In this document: one piece after another, positions 3,849 through 13,506 of the stretch
Layout of the letters: every line of letters begins with the position of its first letter
How positions within the stretch are numbered: position 1 is the first letter of the stretch
Virus record (IMG/VR): IMGVR_UViG_3300025122_000156
Span: 1 to 23,953 of that record
Reading direction: 5' to 3' (one strand)
From: a virus
Length of the DNA stretch: 23,953 bases
Notes under the pieces: model-generated
The model's database searches: none
What the model saw: the letters and a program-made list of their open reading frames with translations, nothing else
Told to the model about the DNA's origin: nothing
Made by a program: the position numbers and the translations under genes

Positions 3849-4205
3849 ATGATTGCTAGCATGAATAAGGTGATGGTTATGGGTCGCGTCGAGTCTGACG
3901 CCGATCACCGCCTAGTGGGCGACGGAACGAAGGGCAAGCTGGGCTTCAGGCTCCGCACAGAGCGACAGTGGAAGGAGCAGACCTTCTCTACGGTTCACAG
4001 AATCGTGGCATGGGGCTCGATGGCGGAACAGCACAAGAGCCTGAAGGCGGGCGCTACGGTGTACGTGGACGGGCGTCTTGAGAACCGGAAGTATGAGAAG
4101 GACGGAGAGACCAAGTGGATCTCCGAGATTAGTGCCGGCGACATTCAAGTGTTCGGTGCCCCCGCAGCGAGCGAGACGCTGCCTGAAGAAGAAATCCCGT
4201 TCTGA
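3849..4205 (+). CDS. ssb: Single-stranded DNA-binding protein
   Basis: The product is 118 aa with an SSB-type OB fold. MNKVMVMGRV is the usual first strand, FRLRTERQWKE and TVHRIVAWGSMAE are core strands, and AGATVYVDGRLENRKYEKDG is the hallmark late hairpin. The tail ends in EEEIPF, a variant of the acidic DDDIPF tip that recruits partner proteins. The intervening tail is very short for an SSB. It coats ssDNA during phage replication and probably contacts the primase-helicase or a polymerase encoded elsewhere. ATG 3849 lies 2 nt after the regulator stop. ATG 3861, which starts with the family-typical MNKV, is an equally reasonable start. Its stop overlaps the next ATG (TGATG). Confidence 0.92.
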   Translation: MIASMNKVMVMGRVESDADHRLVGDGTKGKLGFRLRTERQWKEQTFSTVHRIVAWGSMAEQHKSLKAGATVYVDGRLENRKYEKDGETKWISEISAGDIQVFGAPAASETLPEEEIPF

Positions 4206-4768
4206 TGGGCAGCCCATACAATGCGCGGCAGCTGTGGTCCGAAACGGAGGAGGGCACAGACAACGCCCTGTGGGCTACCCCACCAGAGGTCTTCGACAAG
4301 CTAAACGAGCGCTTCGACTTTGATCTAGATGCTGCGGCTACTAGGGATAGCGCGAAGTGCCCGCTTTACTTTGACGAGAACATAGACGCGCTTAGCGTGT
4401 CTTGGGATAGGCCGGGTGTTGTCAGAGAGAAGGGTACTCACGGAGACACCTGGACGAGCGTTCCGGTGGACAAGGTGGGTGCCGCGTTCCTGAACCCACC
4501 GTGGGGAAGGGGCATCTCTAGATGGCTGAAGAAGGCCTACGAAGAGTCACGCAAGGGAGTCACCGTTTGCTGCCTCATCCCATCATGTACCGACACTAGG
4601 TACTGGAGGGACTACGTTTGGAAGGCAGCAGAGGTCACGTTTATGACTGGCAGGGTTAGGTTCCTACAGCCAGACGGGACAGCCAGGGGGCCATGCCCCA
4701 AGGGCACCGCCGTTGTCGTCTTTGCCGCGTGGTCTGAAGGTCCGCCTGTGTGCAGGCTGGGTCTTTAG
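4205..4768 (+). CDS. Phage N6-adenine DNA methyltransferase (Dam-type)
   Basis: The 187-aa product matches the compact phage adenine methyltransferase family. It has WATPPEVF (23-30), then F-DLDAAA (40-45) for S-adenosylmethionine binding, and the catalytic motif NPPW (97-100), followed by a helix and LIPSCTDTRYW. The segment at about 68-92, between the two motif blocks, is charged and may be a loop insertion. It would methylate adenine in the phage genome, giving protection from host restriction or marking replicated DNA. No cognate restriction enzyme gene lies nearby, so it acts as a solitary enzyme. The target site cannot be read from sequence. It is coupled to ssb by TGATG and followed 10 nt later by a tRNA gene. 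Confidence 0.9.
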   Translation: MGSPYNARQLWSETEEGTDNALWATPPEVFDKLNERFDFDLDAAATRDSAKCPLYFDENIDALSVSWDRPGVVREKGTHGDTWTSVPVDKVGAAFLNPPWGRGISRWLKKAYEESRKGVTVCCLIPSCTDTRYWRDYVWKAAEVTFMTGRVRFLQPDGTARGPCPKGTAVVVFAAWSEGPPVCRLGL

Positions 4769-4778
4769 TTTAGATGGT

Positions 4779-4855
4779 GGGCCTGTAGCTCAGTTGGTCA
4801 GAGCGGTCGGCTCATAACCGAATGGTCCCAGGTTCAAGTCCTGGCAGGCCCACCA
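4779..4855 (+). tRNA. tRNA with CAU anticodon, probably tRNA-Ile2
   Basis: This is a 77-nt cloverleaf with encoded CCA. The acceptor stem is GGGCCTG/CAGGCCC, the D arm GCTC/GAGC, the anticodon loop CTCATAA with CAT at 4813-4815, and the T arm CCAGG/CCTGG with loop TTCAAGT. One mismatch (G27-A43) lies at the base of the anticodon stem. A CAU anticodon can mean initiator Met, elongator Met or Ile2. The variable loop TGGTC and the C4-G69 and C5-G68 pairs resemble bacterial tRNA-Ile2, whose C34 is changed to lysidine by host TilS so that it reads AUA. The tail genes are rich in ATA, which fits. Its 3' end lies one base from the stop of the convergent gene. Confidence 0.92.
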
Positions 4856-4856
4856 G

Positions 4857-7106
4857 CTAGTCCCGGGCCCTAGACATGGCCGGACGCCGGTCCTCCCTTT
4901 CGGGCCTCCAGTCGAGGGCTTCGCGCTCTCTCCCTGGGGTTAGTTCCGCCCTTAGCCCGGACCAGTCCTCTGGGCTGAGTTCCTTCCACGACCCCCTGGC
5001 AAAAGCGTCAGCCTCTTCAAAGCTGTCGAACGGGATGGCGTTGCCGGCCTTAACCTGGCGCTTGGCCCACTCGTCATCGCCGGGCTCTTTCTCAACAAGC
5101 CTCCCGCCCTCATACGCGATCTCTGGGTAGACCCACTCCCTCCCGTCAAATCCGGCAGTGGAAAGAAGAACAGTGGAGACATCTTCGCCCTTGTCGATAT
5201 ATCCCAACCCACTGTCCGAATCGAGGTAGTCGCCAGGGTTCAGGATGCGTTTGACGAACGGCACGTCTTTGTGTTCTCGGATCGTTGCCTTGACGCTCTC
5301 TTTGGCCAGCGCCTCTTCGGCCACATCAATCGGCAGCCTTGGGGGTCGCCCCTCTGTTCTTGTCGGGCCGTAGGGCAGGATGTCCACCAACTCTTCCACG
5401 CGAAGATCCTCTAGCTCCGCGTCTTCTTCGATCATGTCTCTAAGCCCGTCTTCCCCAAACTCTTCGATTGCCTTGTCTAGAAGGTGGGCCCGCCACTCTT
5501 CCTTCCGGCCCTCCTCTTTATCGACGGCCTCCAGTATCCTCTCCTGGCTAGTCTCGCCCCCCAGCCGCAGCCTCTCTGGCGGGGTGAGGAATCCGGCAGA
5601 CCCTGGCTCTCCGCCAGCCACCCTTCCCAGACCCGCTGAGACGGCACCAACGGCAGCGCCCTCAAGCACCCCCTTGGCTATCATGGCCGGGGTTAGCGCG
5701 GTCTTTGCCGCCTTGGCGAACTTCGCTGCCGCTCTCAGGACGCGATCCCGCCAGGCACCGGATCCGCCCTGAAGCCCCCTGAACACCAGCTTGCCCTCGC
5801 CTCCTTTGAAGCGTGGATCGTTGGCTATCTCGTCAATGATCTTTCTGGCGTCCTCGTCGCTTAATGACGGCTTCTTCCAGGCTGGCCCAGCCTTGTTGTC
5901 CATTTCATAAAAGCTAACGTCGGGCGGAAGCTCTTTTCTGGCCCAGGTCCAGGCTGGTTGGCTTGCATCAAGGCCCTGTGCCTTAGCTACGCCAGCGGGA
6001 GAGTCCGCTGCGTAAAGACCAAGGGCGCGAGCCTCCTTCTTCGTTAGGCTGAAGTCCTTGATTAGCCTCTGCTCTGTGTTCCACCTTTCCGTTGGGGTTT
6101 GACGGGCGCTGCTGGATGGGTAATCACCCTCTACGGGGTAATCGACCTCCCACGGCTCATTGACCAAATATCCTGAGCTTTTCTCGCCAAACAAGTTGGG
6201 CAGCGAGCGTGGGACTGCCCGCTCTGGCATAACCGGACTGGCCTGTCTTGGCATGTCAATGCCTGCCCGCTTGGCCGCGTCGTGGCCTAGCTCTGTAACC
6301 TCTTTGTACGACAGGCCAGCGCCCGCCACGCGAGCCTCGGTGCCCTTCCCCCAGGCCCACTGTTCGCTAGGAAGATCATAAAGGCGGTGCGGATCGATCT
6401 CCGGGTTATACCTAGGGCTAGGGTCTATAACCCCGCGCACCATTTTCGCCTGACCCGGGCGTAGTCCCTCGGCCTTGTATGAAAACCCGGTCGGCCACTC
6501 CCTGTGTCCGGTTGGCCTGTCGCCTTTGACTCCAAAGAGGCTAGACTCAAGATTGAAGGCGTGTCTTCCTGGTCGCCTTGCTGGCTCAGTCGGAACCTCT
6601 AAGACCTCTTTCGGCTCAACCCTAATTGGGTAGACTCTGCCCGCACCCGCGTCACCGTAGTCGTTGGCATACGAGAGGGCGACGAACGGGTTCTCGGATG
6701 CAAACGCCACCTCCTTCGATGAAAAGGGTTCTCTTGCCGACGCCGGGAATGGATGCTCTGTCGCCAGGTATGCAGCGGACTCAACCTCCGGCCTCACTCT
6801 TGACAGAAAGGCCCCGGCCCCAGCGCCAAGCAGCGCCCCCTCTCCCAGGGTCTTCGCCCAGCTAGTGGTCTGAAGTGGCTCCAGTCTGGTCGTGCGCTCC
6901 GGCTCATACGACGGAAGGGCGCTTGGCCTGTTGGGCTGGTACAGCGCGGCAAGGTGTCTTCCGTAGTAGTCGTTTTCTATGTCTTCGGGCGAGCGAAGCA
7001 GGGCCAGCCTCTTCTTCGGCATGAAGTCGAACTCTCCCTCAGGCCGCGACCCCGCATAGTCTGGCTTGCCGAAGATGCTCTCCAGGGCCCCCTCGTTGTT
7101 AGGCAC
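4857..7106 (-). CDS. Large multidomain virion or injected protein, ART-like segment
   Basis: The product is 749 aa from GTG 7106, which overlaps the upstream stop by 8 nt; ATG 7022 is an alternative. Residues 110-172 (FASENPFVALSYAND, then GRVYPIRVEP) look like the part of ADP-ribosyltransferase-like domains of phage polyvalent proteins where a hidden-in-time strand precedes R-V-Y-P. Two Gly/Ala-rich hydrophobic stretches (about 86-101 and 470-499) could insert into a membrane. Residues 520-605 are acidic and helical. Residues 640-710 (WVYPEIAYEGGRL, IPFDSFEEADAFA) resemble a short domain often found at the ends of phage virion proteins. No complete catalytic triad is visible. I infer a protein packed in the head and ejected with DNA. 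Membership of a specific family is unproven. Confidence 0.5.
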   Translation of the reverse strand: MPNNEGALESIFGKPDYAGSRPEGEFDFMPKKRLALLRSPEDIENDYYGRHLAALYQPNRPSALPSYEPERTTRLEPLQTTSWAKTLGEGALLGAGAGAFLSRVRPEVESAAYLATEHPFPASAREPFSSKEVAFASENPFVALSYANDYGDAGAGRVYPIRVEPKEVLEVPTEPARRPGRHAFNLESSLFGVKGDRPTGHREWPTGFSYKAEGLRPGQAKMVRGVIDPSPRYNPEIDPHRLYDLPSEQWAWGKGTEARVAGAGLSYKEVTELGHDAAKRAGIDMPRQASPVMPERAVPRSLPNLFGEKSSGYLVNEPWEVDYPVEGDYPSSSARQTPTERWNTEQRLIKDFSLTKKEARALGLYAADSPAGVAKAQGLDASQPAWTWARKELPPDVSFYEMDNKAGPAWKKPSLSDEDARKIIDEIANDPRFKGGEGKLVFRGLQGGSGAWRDRVLRAAAKFAKAAKTALTPAMIAKGVLEGAAVGAVSAGLGRVAGGEPGSAGFLTPPERLRLGGETSQERILEAVDKEEGRKEEWRAHLLDKAIEEFGEDGLRDMIEEDAELEDLRVEELVDILPYGPTRTEGRPPRLPIDVAEEALAKESVKATIREHKDVPFVKRILNPGDYLDSDSGLGYIDKGEDVSTVLLSTAGFDGREWVYPEIAYEGGRLVEKEPGDDEWAKRQVKAGNAIPFDSFEEADAFARGSWKELSPEDWSGLRAELTPGREREALDWRPEREDRRPAMSRARD

Positions 7107-7755
7107 GGCCCCTGCCCAGCTTGCCTAGCCGCTGCTCCAGGCTCTTACTTGCTAGCGCACGTCGGCGCTGCGCTTCGGCTAGTCGGTTGCGAGCGGCGGG
7201 GCTTCCCTCTCCGCGCTCCGCGCCAGCCTCAAGCACCTTGCTCCGGCCCTCTGCTAGCCCCGATTCATACGAATCCTTGGCGGCGTTTTCGACGTTGTTC
7301 TTTCGCTCCTGATCTAATTCCCCCTCAAGTTGTGTGATTCTGCCGCTGTACAGCCTCTGAAGCGCCTGTGCGCTCGGGGTTTGGGCCTGGAAGCCCTGGG
7401 CCTCTGCATACTGCGAGACGGGCGGCTGAAGCGGGCCAATGGCGCTGTCGGTTGGCCTAGCCGTCTGAAAGGCGGGGTCTCCTCCGGCGGCATTCTGCTG
7501 GGCTAGGCGGGAAAGCTGCTCTCTGCTCCCAGCCATGAAGCGTTGAATCTCTCCCCTGCCGGCAACCGTTCCCGCACCCTTGGGGTCTCGGGTTGCCCGC
7601 TTGGTTTGGTAGTCGATGCCCTGTTGCCCGTAGCGCGCGAACTGGTCTCTGCTGAGCCCGGTCTGCTGCTCGGCCATGCGAAGGAACTCCTCGATCTCGT
7701 TGGGGGTTCCGAAGTCTTCAGGGGAGGGCTGCCCGCCGCCTTGTTCAAAAGCCAT
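7099..7755 (-). CDS. Hypothetical Gln-rich helical protein, probable virion component
   Basis: The product is 218 aa and I do not recognise its family. It is rich in Gln, Ala, Arg and Glu. An N-terminal acidic helix (EIEEFLRMAEQQTG) is followed by a low-complexity middle with many GQ and PQ pairs. The C-terminal half is predicted coiled coil (ITQLEGELDQERKNN onward) ending in a basic tail (KLGRGRA). AAGGAAG lies 8 nt before ATG 7755, and the ATG overlaps the stop of the 41-aa gene (TAATG). Its stop overlaps the start of the 749-aa gene by 8 nt, so all three are one operon. The composition suits an internal head or ejection protein. That role is inferred. Confidence 0.7.
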   Translation of the reverse strand: MAFEQGGGQPSPEDFGTPNEIEEFLRMAEQQTGLSRDQFARYGQQGIDYQTKRATRDPKGAGTVAGRGEIQRFMAGSREQLSRLAQQNAAGGDPAFQTARPTDSAIGPLQPPVSQYAEAQGFQAQTPSAQALQRLYSGRITQLEGELDQERKNNVENAAKDSYESGLAEGRSKVLEAGAERGEGSPAARNRLAEAQRRRALASKSLEQRLGKLGRGRA

Positions 7756-7880
7756 TAGTATTTCTTCCTTTTCGTGGCGCGGCTCCCCTTTGCGGGCCTG
7801 CTCCTACTTGGTTTACCTGTGTAGCTCTTTCCGCTCTTGCGTCCGCGCCTCCCCTTGGCCAGGCATCTCTTTGCGGGCAT
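7755..7880 (-). CDS. 41-aa Arg/Lys-rich basic peptide
   Basis: A short reading frame begins with MPAKRCLAKGRRGRKSG. Its start ATG 7880 is preceded at 5 nt by a perfect AAGGAGG, and its stop overlaps the next gene (TAATG). It has 9 Lys and 8 Arg in 41 residues and no Asp or Glu, plus Ser, Gly and Pro. There is no membrane segment. Such a composition fits a nucleic-acid-binding or DNA-condensing peptide, comparable in character to protamine-like viral core peptides. It is the first gene of the minus-strand operon and so is likely made in quantity. I do not know a named family. The excellent ribosome binding site and both-side coupling make it a real gene. Confidence 0.8.
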   Translation of the reverse strand: MPAKRCLAKGRRGRKSGKSYTGKPSRSRPAKGSRATKRKKY

Positions 7881-7969: not shown

Positions 7970-8290
7970 GTGTCCTTTGATCCAAGCGAGTATAGCGTCA
8001 AGGAGGCGGTCAGCAGGCTGGACGACCTTTCGCTTGACGACCTTTCTGCGGTGTTATCCCTTGAGCTAGAGAACAAGCACCGATCATCGTTAGTTTCCGA
8101 GATTGGGCGGGCCATTGATGCGGCTAAGACAGCCGACGAGGCTGAGGAAGCCGTCGAGGAGCCGGTTGAGGTAGAGGCGGTGGTTGCAGCGAGGCCCAAG
8201 CAGTTAATTTCGCTTCAGCGGCTGCTCAAGCTACGCCCCGACGCCAGGAAGAAGTTCACTCGTCGCCAAGACGGCATGTTTGAGGCGTAG
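7970..8290 (+). CDS. Small helical acidic protein, unknown function
   Basis: The product is 106 aa. The frame opens upstream at a TTG at 7907, but AGGAG at 7959-7963 points to GTG 7970. Residues 6-50 form a short helical domain beginning YSVKEAVSRLDDL and ending in NKHRSSLVSEIGRAI. Comparable Tyr-Ser-Val-x-Glu helix-loop-helix domains occur in small phage head or tail accessory proteins. A Glu/Val-rich linker (about 55-72) leads to a basic C-terminal helix. The LDDLS motif is duplicated back to back. Its stop overlaps the GTG of the next gene (TAGTG), which ties it to the terminase operon. A packaging or head accessory role is likely but not shown. Confidence 0.7.
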   Translation: MSFDPSEYSVKEAVSRLDDLSLDDLSAVLSLELENKHRSSLVSEIGRAIDAAKTADEAEEAVEEPVEVEAVVAARPKQLISLQRLLKLRPDARKKFTRRQDGMFEA

Positions 8291-8946
8291 TGCCGAGAAA
8301 CACCAGAGTCGGGGGCGTCAACTCCTGGCGTCTTCCGGCTGGCAGCGATGGGGTGTCAACCTACCGCCCGGTGAGACGGGCGCAGGACAGGACCCCAGAC
8401 TCCCAAACCAACGTCCGTGTCCCAGGGTTTCAAGACGACCACGCCAGATATGGGTGGGAGGTTGAGCAGTGGAGGAACGCATTCGTTACAAAGATGCGGT
8501 GGACGAAGTGGATGGGCGCTGATAGCAAGTGGCACGTAGGCCCCCCCGTTCACCCAGACGCCCCGGTATTCTGGAACGAGGTGGCGCAGAGAGCGTTCAA
8601 GGAGGCCAACAAGGAGGGGTACGCTGCCCCAAGACACGTCGCTGAAATGGTGGACATCAGCAGGTATGAGGCAAAGCGCCTGATGGACGTTATGCACGGC
8701 CACATGCGACTAGCTTTCGTGCAGTACCCGCACAACAGGCTCACAAACACAATATGGAACTGCCGAATGCTTCATATTGACGATGTTGTTGATCTGGGCC
8801 AAAACTTAGACGAATGGAGAACGAGGCTGAAGGCCGCGTTCAAGGACAGAGCAATACCCCTTCCGAGTCAGAGGATGCGGCAAAAGGGACTGATCTGGGA
8901 TTACAATGGCAAGGGCTGGAAAAAAGTACGCAGACGAGGCGACTGA
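8290..8946 (+). CDS. Candidate terminase small subunit
   Basis: The product is 218 aa, starting at GTG 8290 inside the previous stop and overlapping the TerL start by 41 nt. The N-terminal 45 residues are basic and probably disordered. Residues of about 95-135 contain a helix-turn-helix-like stretch (APRHVAEMVDISRYEAKRLM). The C-terminus is basic (KGWKKVRRRGD). Small terminase subunits recognise the packaging site through a helix-turn-helix and sit just before TerL, which fits here. I see no unmistakable family signature, so the call is mainly positional. A different DNA-binding packaging factor is possible. Confidence 0.5.
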   Translation: MPRNTRVGGVNSWRLPAGSDGVSTYRPVRRAQDRTPDSQTNVRVPGFQDDHARYGWEVEQWRNAFVTKMRWTKWMGADSKWHVGPPVHPDAPVFWNEVAQRAFKEANKEGYAAPRHVAEMVDISRYEAKRLMDVMHGHMRLAFVQYPHNRLTNTIWNCRMLHIDDVVDLGQNLDEWRTRLKAAFKDRAIPLPSQRMRQKGLIWDYNGKGWKKVRRRGD

Positions 8947-10825
8947 AGAGCTTACTTCAGGGGTACACGACGACTTCATTGAGTTTGCAGAGGCGCACCT
9001 CAGGATTCAGACGAAGAGCGGAGAGTTCAAGGAGCTAGCGCTTAACAGATCGCAGCTTCTCCGCGAGGGCCTGATCACAGAGATGGAGAACGCCAAGCGC
9101 CCCGTGCGGGTTTGGGAGGCGAAGGCCAGACAGCTAGGCTGCTCCACCCACGTTCAGGCAAAGATGTTCCATCGCTGCATAACCAACCACGACGAAGTGG
9201 CGCTGGTTGCGGCACACACAGAGCCCTCTGTTAGAAGCATCTTCACCAAGTGCAAGATGTTCTACGACTTCTTGCCAGAGAGGCTGCGCCCGCTTACCAG
9301 ATACAACAACGTATACGAGCTAGACTTCAGAGCGCCGTCTGGGCCTGCGGGCCTGCGATCACGGTTCATCGTTATGACGGCGAAGTCCATTGACGACGCC
9401 CGTGGGTTTACGGCTAGGCAGGTTCATTGCTCAGAGGTCGCCTTCTACAAGAACCCAGAGGCGTTCTTCCTGGCGACGTTGCAGGTCGTGCCAGACGAGC
9501 CAGGGACAATGGTCTACGTGGAGTCTACGTGTAACGGCGCGGGAGACTTCCACCACAGCCAGTACCTATCGGCCAACGTTTGGTGGGATGAGATTCCGCC
9601 GTGGATGGCGTTGAAGAGGCGCTTTCCCGGGCACCCAGACAGCACTTGGTACGCGCTCTTCACTCCGTGGTTCCTCATGGACGAGTACAAGCGAAAGCTG
9701 AACGTGCCTGAGAAGGAGTTCCGCGCAAGCCTAGACGCCGAAGAGCGGTCGTTGCTTGATCGCTTCGACAAGTGGCTAGACCTTGAGAGCTTGCAGTGGA
9801 GGCGCGAAACGCTCGTAAGCAAGTGCGGCGGAAGCCTAGAGCGCTTCAAGATGGAGTACCCGTCAACTGACGAGGAGGCATTCTCTGCCACCGGAAGCCC
9901 CGTGTTTGACCAGAAGATCATCTACAACCAGATAGAGAACTGTGGGTGCTGGTGCGAGCTTTGCGCCCCGAAGTCTCAGAAAAAGGGCGACGACAACGAC
10001 TGCCCAGAACACAAGTGGTTTGAGATTGTAGACAGGTCGGGGAACGAGGGCGGCAGGGCCAGGCTATTCACAAACTACAGGCCGGATATTGAGGAGACCA
10101 TGGAGGGGTCTGGCAGGCTGTCGGTTTGGAAAAAGCCCGACCAAGGAAGAAGATATGTTGTAAGCACAGACGTAAGCAAGGGCGCGGCTAGCCGTGACTG
10201 GGACCACGCCGTAGTCATAGACATAGCAAGTATGGAGCAGGTTGCGGAATGGCGCGGGAAAGTGGATTTGGATGTGCTGGCGGAGCAGATGCTTATGTTG
10301 GCCCTGTACTACAACAACGCAGTCCTGGCCCCAGAAGTGTCGGGGCTTGGGGCTGGCCTGGTTGCGATGTTGAACCAAACCAGATACTGGAATCTATACC
10401 GCCGCCGCTCTGTAGACACCCTGACGGTGAACTCCGTGATGCTTGGCTGGGACACCAACAGGAAGAGCAAGTCCGCAATGGTGGGGCTTACCCAGAAGGC
10501 GCTTAAAGACGACTACATAAAGATACGCTCGCAGGCCGTCTTGTCGGAGATGGCGGCGTATAGGCGCGTGCTAAAGATGACGCCAGACGGCGATGAGGGT
10601 CACGCGAAAATGTCCGCACCGGCAGGCAAGCACGACGACGCCTGTGTTGCTCTGATGATCGCAAACGCGGTCGCGCACTACTGCCCAGGAAGCGGGGCAG
10701 ACGTGAGAAAGGAAGAGGTGCGGGCCGCCTCAGGCAACCACAACCTGTGGTCTTCCGAAGACTGGGACGCCTACGAAACCTGGACTAAGAAGGCGAAGAG
10801 CAGGTTGCTTATGAAGGGGAGGTGA
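8906..10825 (+). CDS. terL: Terminase large subunit
   Basis: This 639-aa packaging motor has an N-terminal ATPase and a C-terminal nuclease. The P-loop position reads ARQLGCST (74-81), which lacks the usual GK[ST]; related terminases use ARQLGxST here. HCSEVAFY (174-181) is the Walker B equivalent with E177, and ESTCNG (206-211) is the coupling motif. The RNase-H-like nuclease shows D422 in TDVSKG, E477 in APEVSG and D577-D578 in KHDDAC. Between the domains lies a Cys cluster (C346, C348, C350, C353, then C366 and H369) that could bind zinc. It translocates DNA into proheads through the portal and cuts concatemers. Its 3' end overlaps the convergent gene by 17 nt. Confidence 0.93.
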   Translation: MARAGKKYADEATEELTSGVHDDFIEFAEAHLRIQTKSGEFKELALNRSQLLREGLITEMENAKRPVRVWEAKARQLGCSTHVQAKMFHRCITNHDEVALVAAHTEPSVRSIFTKCKMFYDFLPERLRPLTRYNNVYELDFRAPSGPAGLRSRFIVMTAKSIDDARGFTARQVHCSEVAFYKNPEAFFLATLQVVPDEPGTMVYVESTCNGAGDFHHSQYLSANVWWDEIPPWMALKRRFPGHPDSTWYALFTPWFLMDEYKRKLNVPEKEFRASLDAEERSLLDRFDKWLDLESLQWRRETLVSKCGGSLERFKMEYPSTDEEAFSATGSPVFDQKIIYNQIENCGCWCELCAPKSQKKGDDNDCPEHKWFEIVDRSGNEGGRARLFTNYRPDIEETMEGSGRLSVWKKPDQGRRYVVSTDVSKGAASRDWDHAVVIDIASMEQVAEWRGKVDLDVLAEQMLMLALYYNNAVLAPEVSGLGAGLVAMLNQTRYWNLYRRRSVDTLTVNSVMLGWDTNRKSKSAMVGLTQKALKDDYIKIRSQAVLSEMAAYRRVLKMTPDGDEGHAKMSAPAGKHDDACVALMIANAVAHYCPGSGADVRKEEVRAASGNHNLWSSEDWDAYETWTKKAKSRLLMKGR

Positions 10826-11462
10826 GGCGATATGTCTTCTCGGCCTCGCCCTTCTGAAGCCACCCCGTCTTGATCCCGCTAATGATCCCTCCAAGGAGGC
10901 TCTTGGGATCGGTGTCGATGTCACGAATGAGATCGCCGTAACTAAAAGAGCCGCCCTGCTCGCTGGCATACTGCTGGATGATCTCGGTTGGGCGAGGGCC
11001 AGTCGGAGCAGCCTTCTTCTTGCTCTTCTTCTTGCTCTTCTTCGCGACCCTTGCGTCAATCACAACACGACGCGCCTTCTTAGGCTTGGGCTTCACAACC
11101 TCAGAGCCGTCAGGGGCGAAGGTTTTCGCTGCGTGGTTTTTCTTTGGCTCAAGGCCCTCGTCGTCTTGAACTGCAACGCGCCCAATCTCGGCAAGCTGAC
11201 GATCCCGCTCTTGCTTGGTGTAGAAGTCGCGGCCCTTGAGTTCTGGGCTGGCGTGCTTGCCCCATGTGCCCTTGACGGTCAGGTTGGCTGGGGCTGAGTC
11301 GCGTGGGTAGAAGCGATCCAGGGTTCCGGTGCTGCCACATCGAGTGCATCGGATGTCTCGGAACCCGTCTCGCTTGCTGATCTCATAAAGATCAGGCTTC
11401 GTGAAATAGTCAAACTCCGCGCCGCAGGTTTCAAACAGACAGCGCATTGGGTAGTAAGGCAC
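10809..11462 (-). CDS. Zinc-ribbon plus winged-helix-like protein
   Basis: The product is 217 aa. GTG 11462 is chosen because AGGGG lies 5 nt upstream and the portal stop is 1 nt away; ATG 11447 is an alternative. The N-terminal zinc ribbon has C8-x4-C13 and C39-x2-C42. A middle section is basic, with a Lys run (KKSKKKSKKK, about 141-150). The C-terminal domain (157-213: PTEIIQQYASEQGG, then LLGGIISGIKTGWL and TYRLT) looks like a winged helix. It could be a DNA-binding regulator or a packaging accessory linked to the portal. No specific family is recognised. Its 3' end runs 17 nt into terL on the opposite strand. Confidence 0.7.
   Translation of the reverse strand: MPYYPMRCLFETCGAEFDYFTKPDLYEISKRDGFRDIRCTRCGSTGTLDRFYPRDSAPANLTVKGTWGKHASPELKGRDFYTKQERDRQLAEIGRVAVQDDEGLEPKKNHAAKTFAPDGSEVVKPKPKKARRVVIDARVAKKSKKKSKKKAAPTGPRPTEIIQQYASEQGGSFSYGDLIRDIDTDPKSLLGGIISGIKTGWLQKGEAEKTYRLTSPS
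11013..11043. repeat. Tandem 12-nt repeat in Lys-rich linker
   Basis: CTTCTTCTTGCT occurs twice exactly (11013-11024 and 11025-11036), followed by a 7-nt partial copy. On the minus strand it encodes the KKSK-type lysine run of the zinc-ribbon protein. One unit is four codons, so gain or loss keeps the frame, and linker length may vary between relatives. Confidence 0.85.
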
Positions 11463-11463
11463 T

Positions 11464-13419
11464 CTATCCCCTAACTCTAGACATAAGCGTAGCCACGTCG
11501 GCTGTGCCGCCCGTGCCACTGGTTGCTGGCGGGCCAGCTAGGGGCTGCCCATCAGCCCCCATGCCCCGACCCTGGACGCTCTCTGGGCCCACAGGACCAC
11601 CACCGCCGCCACCACCGGCTGGCGCTGGCGTAGATGCGGCCTGGAGCGCTGCGAGCGGCTCCATCAACATCCTCTTGTCTTGCTGCCAAATCGAGAAGGC
11701 GCGATCCACGAAGTTTGTGATGGTGTCGGGGCTAGAGATACCCGCCTGAACAAGAGGGATCAAGGAGTTGACCGTGGCGTTGATTGTGTTCAGTAGGCCC
11801 ATAAACGCCTGCTGCTCTGTGCCGGGATCTTTGCCGATGGTGCTGCCAGCCTCAACGCGGACATCAAACATGCCAGATATGTCACCTGGGCTCAGTGTTA
11901 TGAAGTCGTCGCTCCCGGCTGGGCCAGAGACACGAAGGTAGCGCGGCTCGTCCCAGTATTGGCGGATGATTGACAGGACTAGGCGGCCAATGTTTTCAAT
12001 GAACCGCTCTACGGTTCCTAGGCGAACGGCTGATCTGTTTGACGATCCCTGCGCGGCAATGGCCACCTCTGTGGCGGTTGTGCCCTTTCGCCCCACGCCA
12101 CCGCGTTGGTAAACATCAACCCCACTGATTTCGTACATTAGGCGCTGTAGGCCCTGCATGACGGAAACGGTGGTTGACGGGGGCGGCGCTTCTGGAAGAA
12201 GCATGATTGCGTTTCTGATGTCCCCCACGTTAGCCGGGATCTCTGCAACCTCCATGTCGGCATCAGACGTAAGCAGGGCGGACAGCGAGCCGTCCTCAAG
12301 GATCCCGGGCAGCCCAACCCACTTGCGCTTGGACGAGATGGAGTGGTGGTGCAAAAGCTGAGACCACTCTTGGTTCAACCTAGCGGCAATGTCCCTAATC
12401 GCGGCTAGGTCGGAAACCTGGGTGGAGTGCATTCGGCCCGGTATTCTCGTGAAAGAAAGAGACCTGTATGGGTATCCGCGAGTGTTAAGCGGATCGTTGA
12501 TGTGGCGAATAACGCACTCTTGCGGCTTCAGGTAGTCCTGGGTCTTGGTTAGCCACAAGATCCGGCGACGAAGGCCGGACTTGGTTTTGGCCCAATACCG
12601 TAGCTCGTAGATAGTAACGAATTCGGGCTCGTCTTCGTATTCGTGCCCCCTGTCGTGGGCAGTGCCGGAGTACCCGCTTGGAAGCGTCTCGGTTAGCCAG
12701 GCATCAGGCGAGAGTTCCCTGGGGATTGAAAACCGATCATCGGCCCTGAGGTCTTCGATACGGACAGTAAGGCGCTCGGCAACCCACGGGCACTTCTGTA
12801 CGTCGGAGTAGCCGGGAGGGGTGAGTAGGTTCCATGGCGGAACGCGCTCAATGGTCGGGTTGTCTTGGGGCCCGTCGTCAAAGGGTATGTCTTCCTCTGC
12901 CATGATCCGACGAAGCTCTCTCGCTTCGTATTCGTCCAGCCCCCCCTCGTCCTCCGCGTCAGTATGCTCTGGCCCCGTTTCGTATTCCTCGTCCAGAAGA
13001 AACGCTCCAGACGGATCGTAGCCAACCTTGGCAACGCCAAAGTTAAACATCAGGCCGTCGAGAACAACGTCTTGAACGACTGACTTGACGTCTATCTCAC
13101 GAAACACATAGTTGACCGCGCCCTCGGCTAGCCTTGCGCTCTCTTCGTCCCCGGGCCTTCGTGGGAGAAACCTAACGTATGGCTCTGCGGAGATTATGTT
13201 TGGAACGAGAACGTTTGCTGTGGCTAGCAGGAAGTTGAAGTTTACGCCCCCGTCTACAGCGAGGCTTAGCTCGTCGTGCCCGTGTTCGGCAACGTAGTCA
13301 TCGAGAACCTGCTTCCAGCGTGGAAGAAGGTTTTCCTCTAGGCGCTTTTCGGCAGCATCAATCCTCTGCTGCCACTCAACCACTTCGTCGTCTTTAATTC
13401 GTATCTTTTTAGAGGACAT
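11464..13419 (-). CDS. Portal protein
   Basis: The product is 651 aa from ATG 13419 (MSSKKIRIKD); the frame also extends to 13470 with no better ribosome binding site. An N-terminal helical region is followed by SLAVDGGVNFNFLLATANVL and an alpha/beta core. The late helix SGVDVYQRGGVGRKGTTATE, then the long helical stem to LSIIRQYWDEPRYL, is characteristic of podo- and siphovirus portals. The C-terminus has a poly-Gly stretch (PAGGGGGGGPVG). Twelve copies form the ring at the head vertex through which TerL pumps DNA. It lies between terL and the scaffold gene as usual, but on the opposite strand to both. No strong Shine-Dalgarno precedes its ATG. Confidence 0.87.
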   Translation of the reverse strand: MSSKKIRIKDDEVVEWQQRIDAAEKRLEENLLPRWKQVLDDYVAEHGHDELSLAVDGGVNFNFLLATANVLVPNIISAEPYVRFLPRRPGDEESARLAEGAVNYVFREIDVKSVVQDVVLDGLMFNFGVAKVGYDPSGAFLLDEEYETGPEHTDAEDEGGLDEYEARELRRIMAEEDIPFDDGPQDNPTIERVPPWNLLTPPGYSDVQKCPWVAERLTVRIEDLRADDRFSIPRELSPDAWLTETLPSGYSGTAHDRGHEYEDEPEFVTIYELRYWAKTKSGLRRRILWLTKTQDYLKPQECVIRHINDPLNTRGYPYRSLSFTRIPGRMHSTQVSDLAAIRDIAARLNQEWSQLLHHHSISSKRKWVGLPGILEDGSLSALLTSDADMEVAEIPANVGDIRNAIMLLPEAPPPSTTVSVMQGLQRLMYEISGVDVYQRGGVGRKGTTATEVAIAAQGSSNRSAVRLGTVERFIENIGRLVLSIIRQYWDEPRYLRVSGPAGSDDFITLSPGDISGMFDVRVEAGSTIGKDPGTEQQAFMGLLNTINATVNSLIPLVQAGISSPDTITNFVDRAFSIWQQDKRMLMEPLAALQAASTPAPAGGGGGGGPVGPESVQGRGMGADGQPLAGPPATSGTGGTADVATLMSRVRG

Positions 13420-13506
13420 GGTGGCCAGGATACTTGACAATGGTTGCGAAATGCAGCGACATAATGTCAAACCAATCGGCTATGCCGAAAAACGGGAGAG
13501 GTATTG
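13420..13506. promoter_or_regulatory. Divergent portal/scaffold control region with TTGACA dyad
   Basis: TTGACA (13434-13439) and its exact complement TGTCAA (13465-13470) face each other across 25 bases. Each is a perfect -35 hexamer, one for each direction. On the + strand CATAAT (13460-13465) is a good -10, but the spacer is 20 bp, longer than the optimum. On the - strand no clear -10 follows. The dyad could be overlapping divergent promoters, an operator, or both. This is the only upstream spacer for the capsid operon, so a strong late promoter is expected here. Confidence 0.5.

Follow-up and report, generated by a model that had tools for sequence, protein, structure and literature searches.

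The minus-strand block between the replication and packaging genes of this phage DNA is probably an exchangeable accessory slot, in which a constant basic micropeptide gene is followed by cargo of new families, and not a fixed structural module. We found that the block is an operon of three genes (K41, Q218 and X749), that Q218 and X749 are under purifying selection, that the K peptide is constant while the cargo is variable, and that the cargo differs by a clean swap between two near-identical phages. The phages of this group are uncultured and probably marine.

According to the proposed mechanism, the tiny, constant and polybasic K gene would open a minus-strand operon beside the packaging genes, and the cargo behind it would be swapped by recombination between conserved flanks, with Q218 and X749 as the cargo of the window's clade. 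The K peptide would bind nucleic acid through its charge. Q218, whose gene directly precedes and overlaps that of X749, may be a partner or chaperone of X749, which would itself be a large host-directed protein whose two Gly-rich segments could contact membranes. The cargo most likely acts in host takeover or counter-defence, because the kinds of cargo found, including a C5 methyltransferase and HExGH proteins, fit such a role, the methyltransferase being suggestive only.

Layout of the block and coding evidence

The window, meaning the whole stretch of DNA analysed, corresponds to a complete IMG/VR record (23,953 bases) and is a fragment of a tailed phage. Its plus strand runs from replication genes through packaging genes to tail genes; TerL, portal and scaffold were assigned with the support of profile matches, and the primase-helicase, SSB-like and adenine-methylase-like genes were named by eye. 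The K41, Q218 and X749 genes form a minus-strand trio with replication genes on one side and packaging genes on the other (Table 1). On the packaging side, the neighbours are TerL and a small gene, together spanning 7970-10825, and the small gene possibly encodes a small terminase or a DNA-binding protein. A strong AAGGAGG site lies upstream of K41, the K41 stop and the Q218 start overlap as TAATG, and the Q218/X749 junction GTGCCTAAC is an 8-nt overlap. The reading frames and overlapping stop and start codons agree with the first-pass annotation, which had described three overlapping genes as a separate operon. A scan of the slot for promoters and terminators returned nothing above chance.

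Table 1. Features at the slot in the window, and slot content in the window and its relatives
Feature	Position or locus	Strand	Basis or remark
K41, 41 aa, ATG start	7755-7880	-	First slot gene; product ends in Tyr; ORF, homologous position, composition and C-terminal Tyr in relatives
Q218, Gln-rich, 218 aa, ATG start	7099-7755	-	ORF; homologues in L003/L004 and L005
X749, 749 aa, GTG start	4857-7106	-	ORF; incomplete homologue in L005, stub in L003/L004
X749 N-terminal ~55 residues	6942-7106	-	Sole X portion left in sibling L003/L004
tRNA-Met(CAT)	4779-4855	+	Distal slot edge; abuts X749 stop
SSB-like and adenine-methylase-like genes	3849-4768	+	Left slot border; names by eye
Small gene divergent from K41	7970-8290	+	Right slot border; MSFDP-like start conserved in relatives
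K + Q + X	window, L005	-	Slot content
K + Q + 71-aa X stub	L004	-	Slot content
K + one further basic peptide	L007, L020, L023	-	Slot content
K + HExGH proteins	L010, L016 (366 aa), L018 (343 aa), L015 (421 aa)	-	Slot content
C5 methyltransferases	L019, L022	-	Slot content
K + phrog_7595 + gene pair near candidate lysis genes in 55-kb sibling	L009, L018	-	Slot content

Elsewhere in the window (10809-13470), the portal gene and a 236-aa gene are inverted between the plus-strand TerL gene and the plus-strand scaffold/capsid genes. The 236-aa product is Lys-rich, with Cys pairs that appear zinc-ribbon-like by eye, and this inversion is kept in every relative where the region is present.

In IMG/VR, Q218 had two independent relatives, namely L003/L004, which are parts of one 55-kb contig (the sibling), and L005; a third record, L002, duplicates the window at 99.9%. 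Q218 was 67% identical to the sibling protein and 32% identical to that of L005. Q218 and X749 are genuine coding genes under purifying selection, since they differ from relatives mainly at the third codon position. Between the window and L003, the differences at codon positions 1/2/3 numbered 55/40/117 for Q218 (dN 0.25, dS 1.9) and 18/14/29 for the X N-terminus, and between the window and L005 they numbered 105/76/149 for X residues 42-285. The DNA pattern of K41 was weaker (16/16/23), and its status as a real gene is argued for by its conserved position and composition.

The composition of the two smaller proteins was also compared with what had been said of them. K41 has 17 Lys/Arg, no Asp or Glu and a pI of 12, in keeping with the earlier description of a basic peptide that could bind DNA. 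Q218 had been called a coiled-coil Gln-rich protein; the Gln-rich part stands (24 Gln, 11%), and the coiled-coil part is not established, as 133 of 300 shuffled sequences scored as well as Q218 or better in a crude heptad test.

Slot content and cargo exchange among relatives

A terminase search retrieved about 25 close contigs with the same gene order, including the inverted portal gene. Across these contigs, the flanking genes were conserved at both slot borders and the slot content varied. Slot content was compared in 18 loci (the window and 17 related viral contigs), many of which are short fragments and in which X is represented by one incomplete homologue. A K-like peptide was the first slot gene in 16 of the 18 loci, free-standing in 15 and fused to phrog_7595 in one (L021). 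The 12 distinct free-standing K sequences were 31-45 aa long (41 aa in L003), with 40-52% Lys/Arg and no Asp or Glu; they were selected by a composition filter, and the C-terminal Tyr present in all 12 lay outside the filter criteria. In 11 loci, the K start was located 22-23 nt from the start of the divergent gene (an internal ATG was taken as the start in L018), so that any separate K promoter would sit inside the divergent gene.

Two further observations concern basic peptides in the relatives. In L021 (~6607-6936), a K-like head is apparently fused in frame to the phrog_7595 protein, whose family also occurs in HMO-2011 and cobaviruses. In L015 (4979-6486) and L016 (4935-6290), a second basic peptide of 47-49 aa, also ending in Tyr, lies on opposite sides of the cargo.

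The cleanest exchange was observed between L015 and L016, which are 99.5% identical over 4.9 kb to the left of the slot and 99.3% identical over 3.4 kb to its right. Between these flanks, the 421-aa cargo of L015 and the 366-aa cargo of L016 are unrelated, and L019, a near relative (95-98%), carries a C5 methyltransferase at the same slot position. The HExGH slot proteins had no family match, so "zincin" can be applied to them at motif level only. Q and X were confined to the window's three-member clade; in the TerL tree, the three carriers formed one supported clade (100/100), and the other cargo was scattered among close tips.

The DNA match between the window and L004 breaks at 4856 and restarts at 7095, and in L003 (8653-8923) the sequence of the X stub continues into the tRNA-Met gene at its 3' edge. 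This arrangement suggests a recombination border at the tRNA edge (window 4779-4859). We infer that X was lost in L003 rather than gained in the window, the simpler course given that the long form is found in L005, which is more distant.

Phage accessory and anti-defence hotspots carry interchangeable cargo between conserved flanks. The slot resembles them in its fixed position, conserved flanks, near-identical genomes with swapped cargo and DNA methyltransferases; unlike them, it begins with a micropeptide gene whose product is constant, polybasic and Tyr-ending, and most of its cargo is without known relatives.

Possible co-injection and related phage systems

The first-pass annotation had taken the three proteins for a co-injected set from the head interior. 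As a mechanism, K would condense or coat the DNA, Q would act as an internal adaptor, and X would be an effector ejected with the DNA, in the manner of the P1 Dar or T4 internal proteins. This is the main rival reading, and we consider it unlikely. It draws on a K peptide that is basic, acid-free and conserved beside the packaging genes, on the two Gly-rich, weakly hydrophobic segments of X749 (residues 86-104 and 475-493), which are similarly placed in the L005 homologue, and on the portal, a late gene that is also on the minus strand. It is not supported as a set, and the refutation that the first-pass annotation had named, genes that are not conserved together, holds in part: of the 16 loci with K, 13 lack both Q and X, which are confined to the window's clade, and the nearest sibling has K and Q but hardly any of X. 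A C5 DNA methyltransferase as cargo is also unexpected in a phage head. Moreover, the sibling has a candidate ejection run (345, 289, 759 and 3640 aa) elsewhere, on the plus strand downstream of the tail genes. These four proteins are ejection candidates by position and size, profile searches gave none of them a name, and the 289-aa member has a strongly hydrophobic segment.

The HExGH cargo of a sister phage aligned with the sibling's 3640-aa protein at the motif region (39% over 59 aa, E 8e-4 in a 12-sequence search), which counts toward co-injection. Zincin-like peptidases are described as typical of proteins packaged in phage heads (Iyer et al., PMC5512222), and this alignment hints weakly that slot cargo and ejected proteins may share one pool of domains, as has been described for polyvalent proteins (PMC5512222). 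The 3640-aa protein itself lies at 7307-18226 of L088 (record 26307-37229) in the 55-kb sibling, downstream of the tail genes; its HELGH motif is at residue 1385, and it had no Pfam or PHROG match.

The block was also compared with known systems. Like the Dar genes of P1 (Hdf, DarA, DdrA, DdrB, Ulx and DarB), it groups small, middle-sized and very large proteins with a suggested host-directed role (PMC9024508). The Dar proteins differ in being proven virion components, with a tested N-terminal capsid-targeting sequence in DarB; no sequence similarity between the K/Q/X block and P1 Dar was found. The X N-terminus, a capsid-targeting candidate, is retained in the L003 stub; it was sought on the other slot cargo and found on none. 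The polyvalent proteins (Iyer et al. 2017, PMC5512222) offer a second likeness, in that X749 is large with a possible ART-like motif, sister cargo has HExxH, and the phage is of the portal-terminase kind. The likeness does not extend to domains: X749 had no recognised domain in Pfam, PHROG or NCBIfam, versus the at least two effector domains expected of a polyvalent protein, and HExxH, a frequent though not required feature of such proteins that is present in sister-phage cargo, is absent from X749 and its L005 homologue. Some slot peptides of the relatives match phrog_7595 (HMO-2011 gp69, CRP-345 gp80, P12053L gp37), a link to HMO-2011-type and cobavirus marine podophages, whose genomes likewise have clusters of small Lys/Arg-rich genes. 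In contrast to this likeness, TerL was only about 26% identical to that of a Roseobacter CRP phage, and none of K, Q and X was found in those podophages.

Candidate functions of X749 and meaning of the slot

The X homologue in L005 is 38% identical to X749 and incomplete, with at least 599 aa before the contig end cuts it; in L003/L004, X is a 71-aa stub in which the X sequence is missing past ~residue 55. Searches of K41, Q218 and X749, as whole proteins and crops, against Pfam, PHROGs, NCBIfam, PADLOC and PDB gave no significant match, the PDB profile searches returning one chance-level match only. The earlier label "multidomain" for X749 is not established, as no domain was recognised. The L005 homologue matched phrog_5880 at E 0.01, a family that did not turn up in the phages tried. 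Neither tblastn of X and X crops against phage records nor scans of a genome collection with X and with TerL gave matches, and hence no host was assigned. AlphaFold models, each built from two sequences, had mean pLDDT values of 34 for X749 and 33 for its residues 105-290, too low for a judgement of the fold. A candidate C-terminal motif (VYPEIAYEGGRL...AIPFDSFEEADAFAR) was dropped after a pattern search of the loci matched the window protein alone.

It is unlikely that X749 is an ADP-ribosyltransferase-like effector of toxin type (Tox-ART-HYD2/ART-PolyVal) that modifies host proteins. A likeness to the second ART motif is visible by eye at residues 133-172 (AFASENPFVALSYANDYG...GRVYPIRVEPKEVLEV), more strongly in L005; MVRGVIDP could supply the ART Asp, and L005 has PFHGPH where the first-motif His is expected. 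This HG pair is missing from the window protein, so that of the ART triad (His on strand 1, Tyr on strand 2, Asp on strand 5) the His-like site is present in L005 and not in the window, and the strands are unassignable. Furthermore, no ART profile match was obtained for X749 in Pfam, PHROG or PDB, PF18760 (ART-PolyVal) gave no match to the window at E 10, with its own controls also below the cut-off, and the AlphaFold crop that covers the motif was poor. A further, quite improbable reading is that K marks and serves an exchangeable effector slot, as a peptide of the virion DNA or the ejection channel that aids delivery of the current slot effector, X749 then belonging to a new effector family. 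A decaying or neutral insertion beside the tRNA is a very improbable account of X749: X is almost gone from the closest sibling, ending at the tRNA edge, but its 749-codon open frame, host-like codon usage and excess third-position change versus L005 across two separate regions argue against decay.

The exchangeable accessory slot remains our preferred reading, and it carries a caution, since one genome's unexplained operon is easily misread as a structural module. If it is right, the slot maps a source of new proteins for counter-defence or host takeover in a phage lineage that is little known. It would also define a constant family of micropeptides, for which the strict composition and the C-terminal Tyr call for a function.
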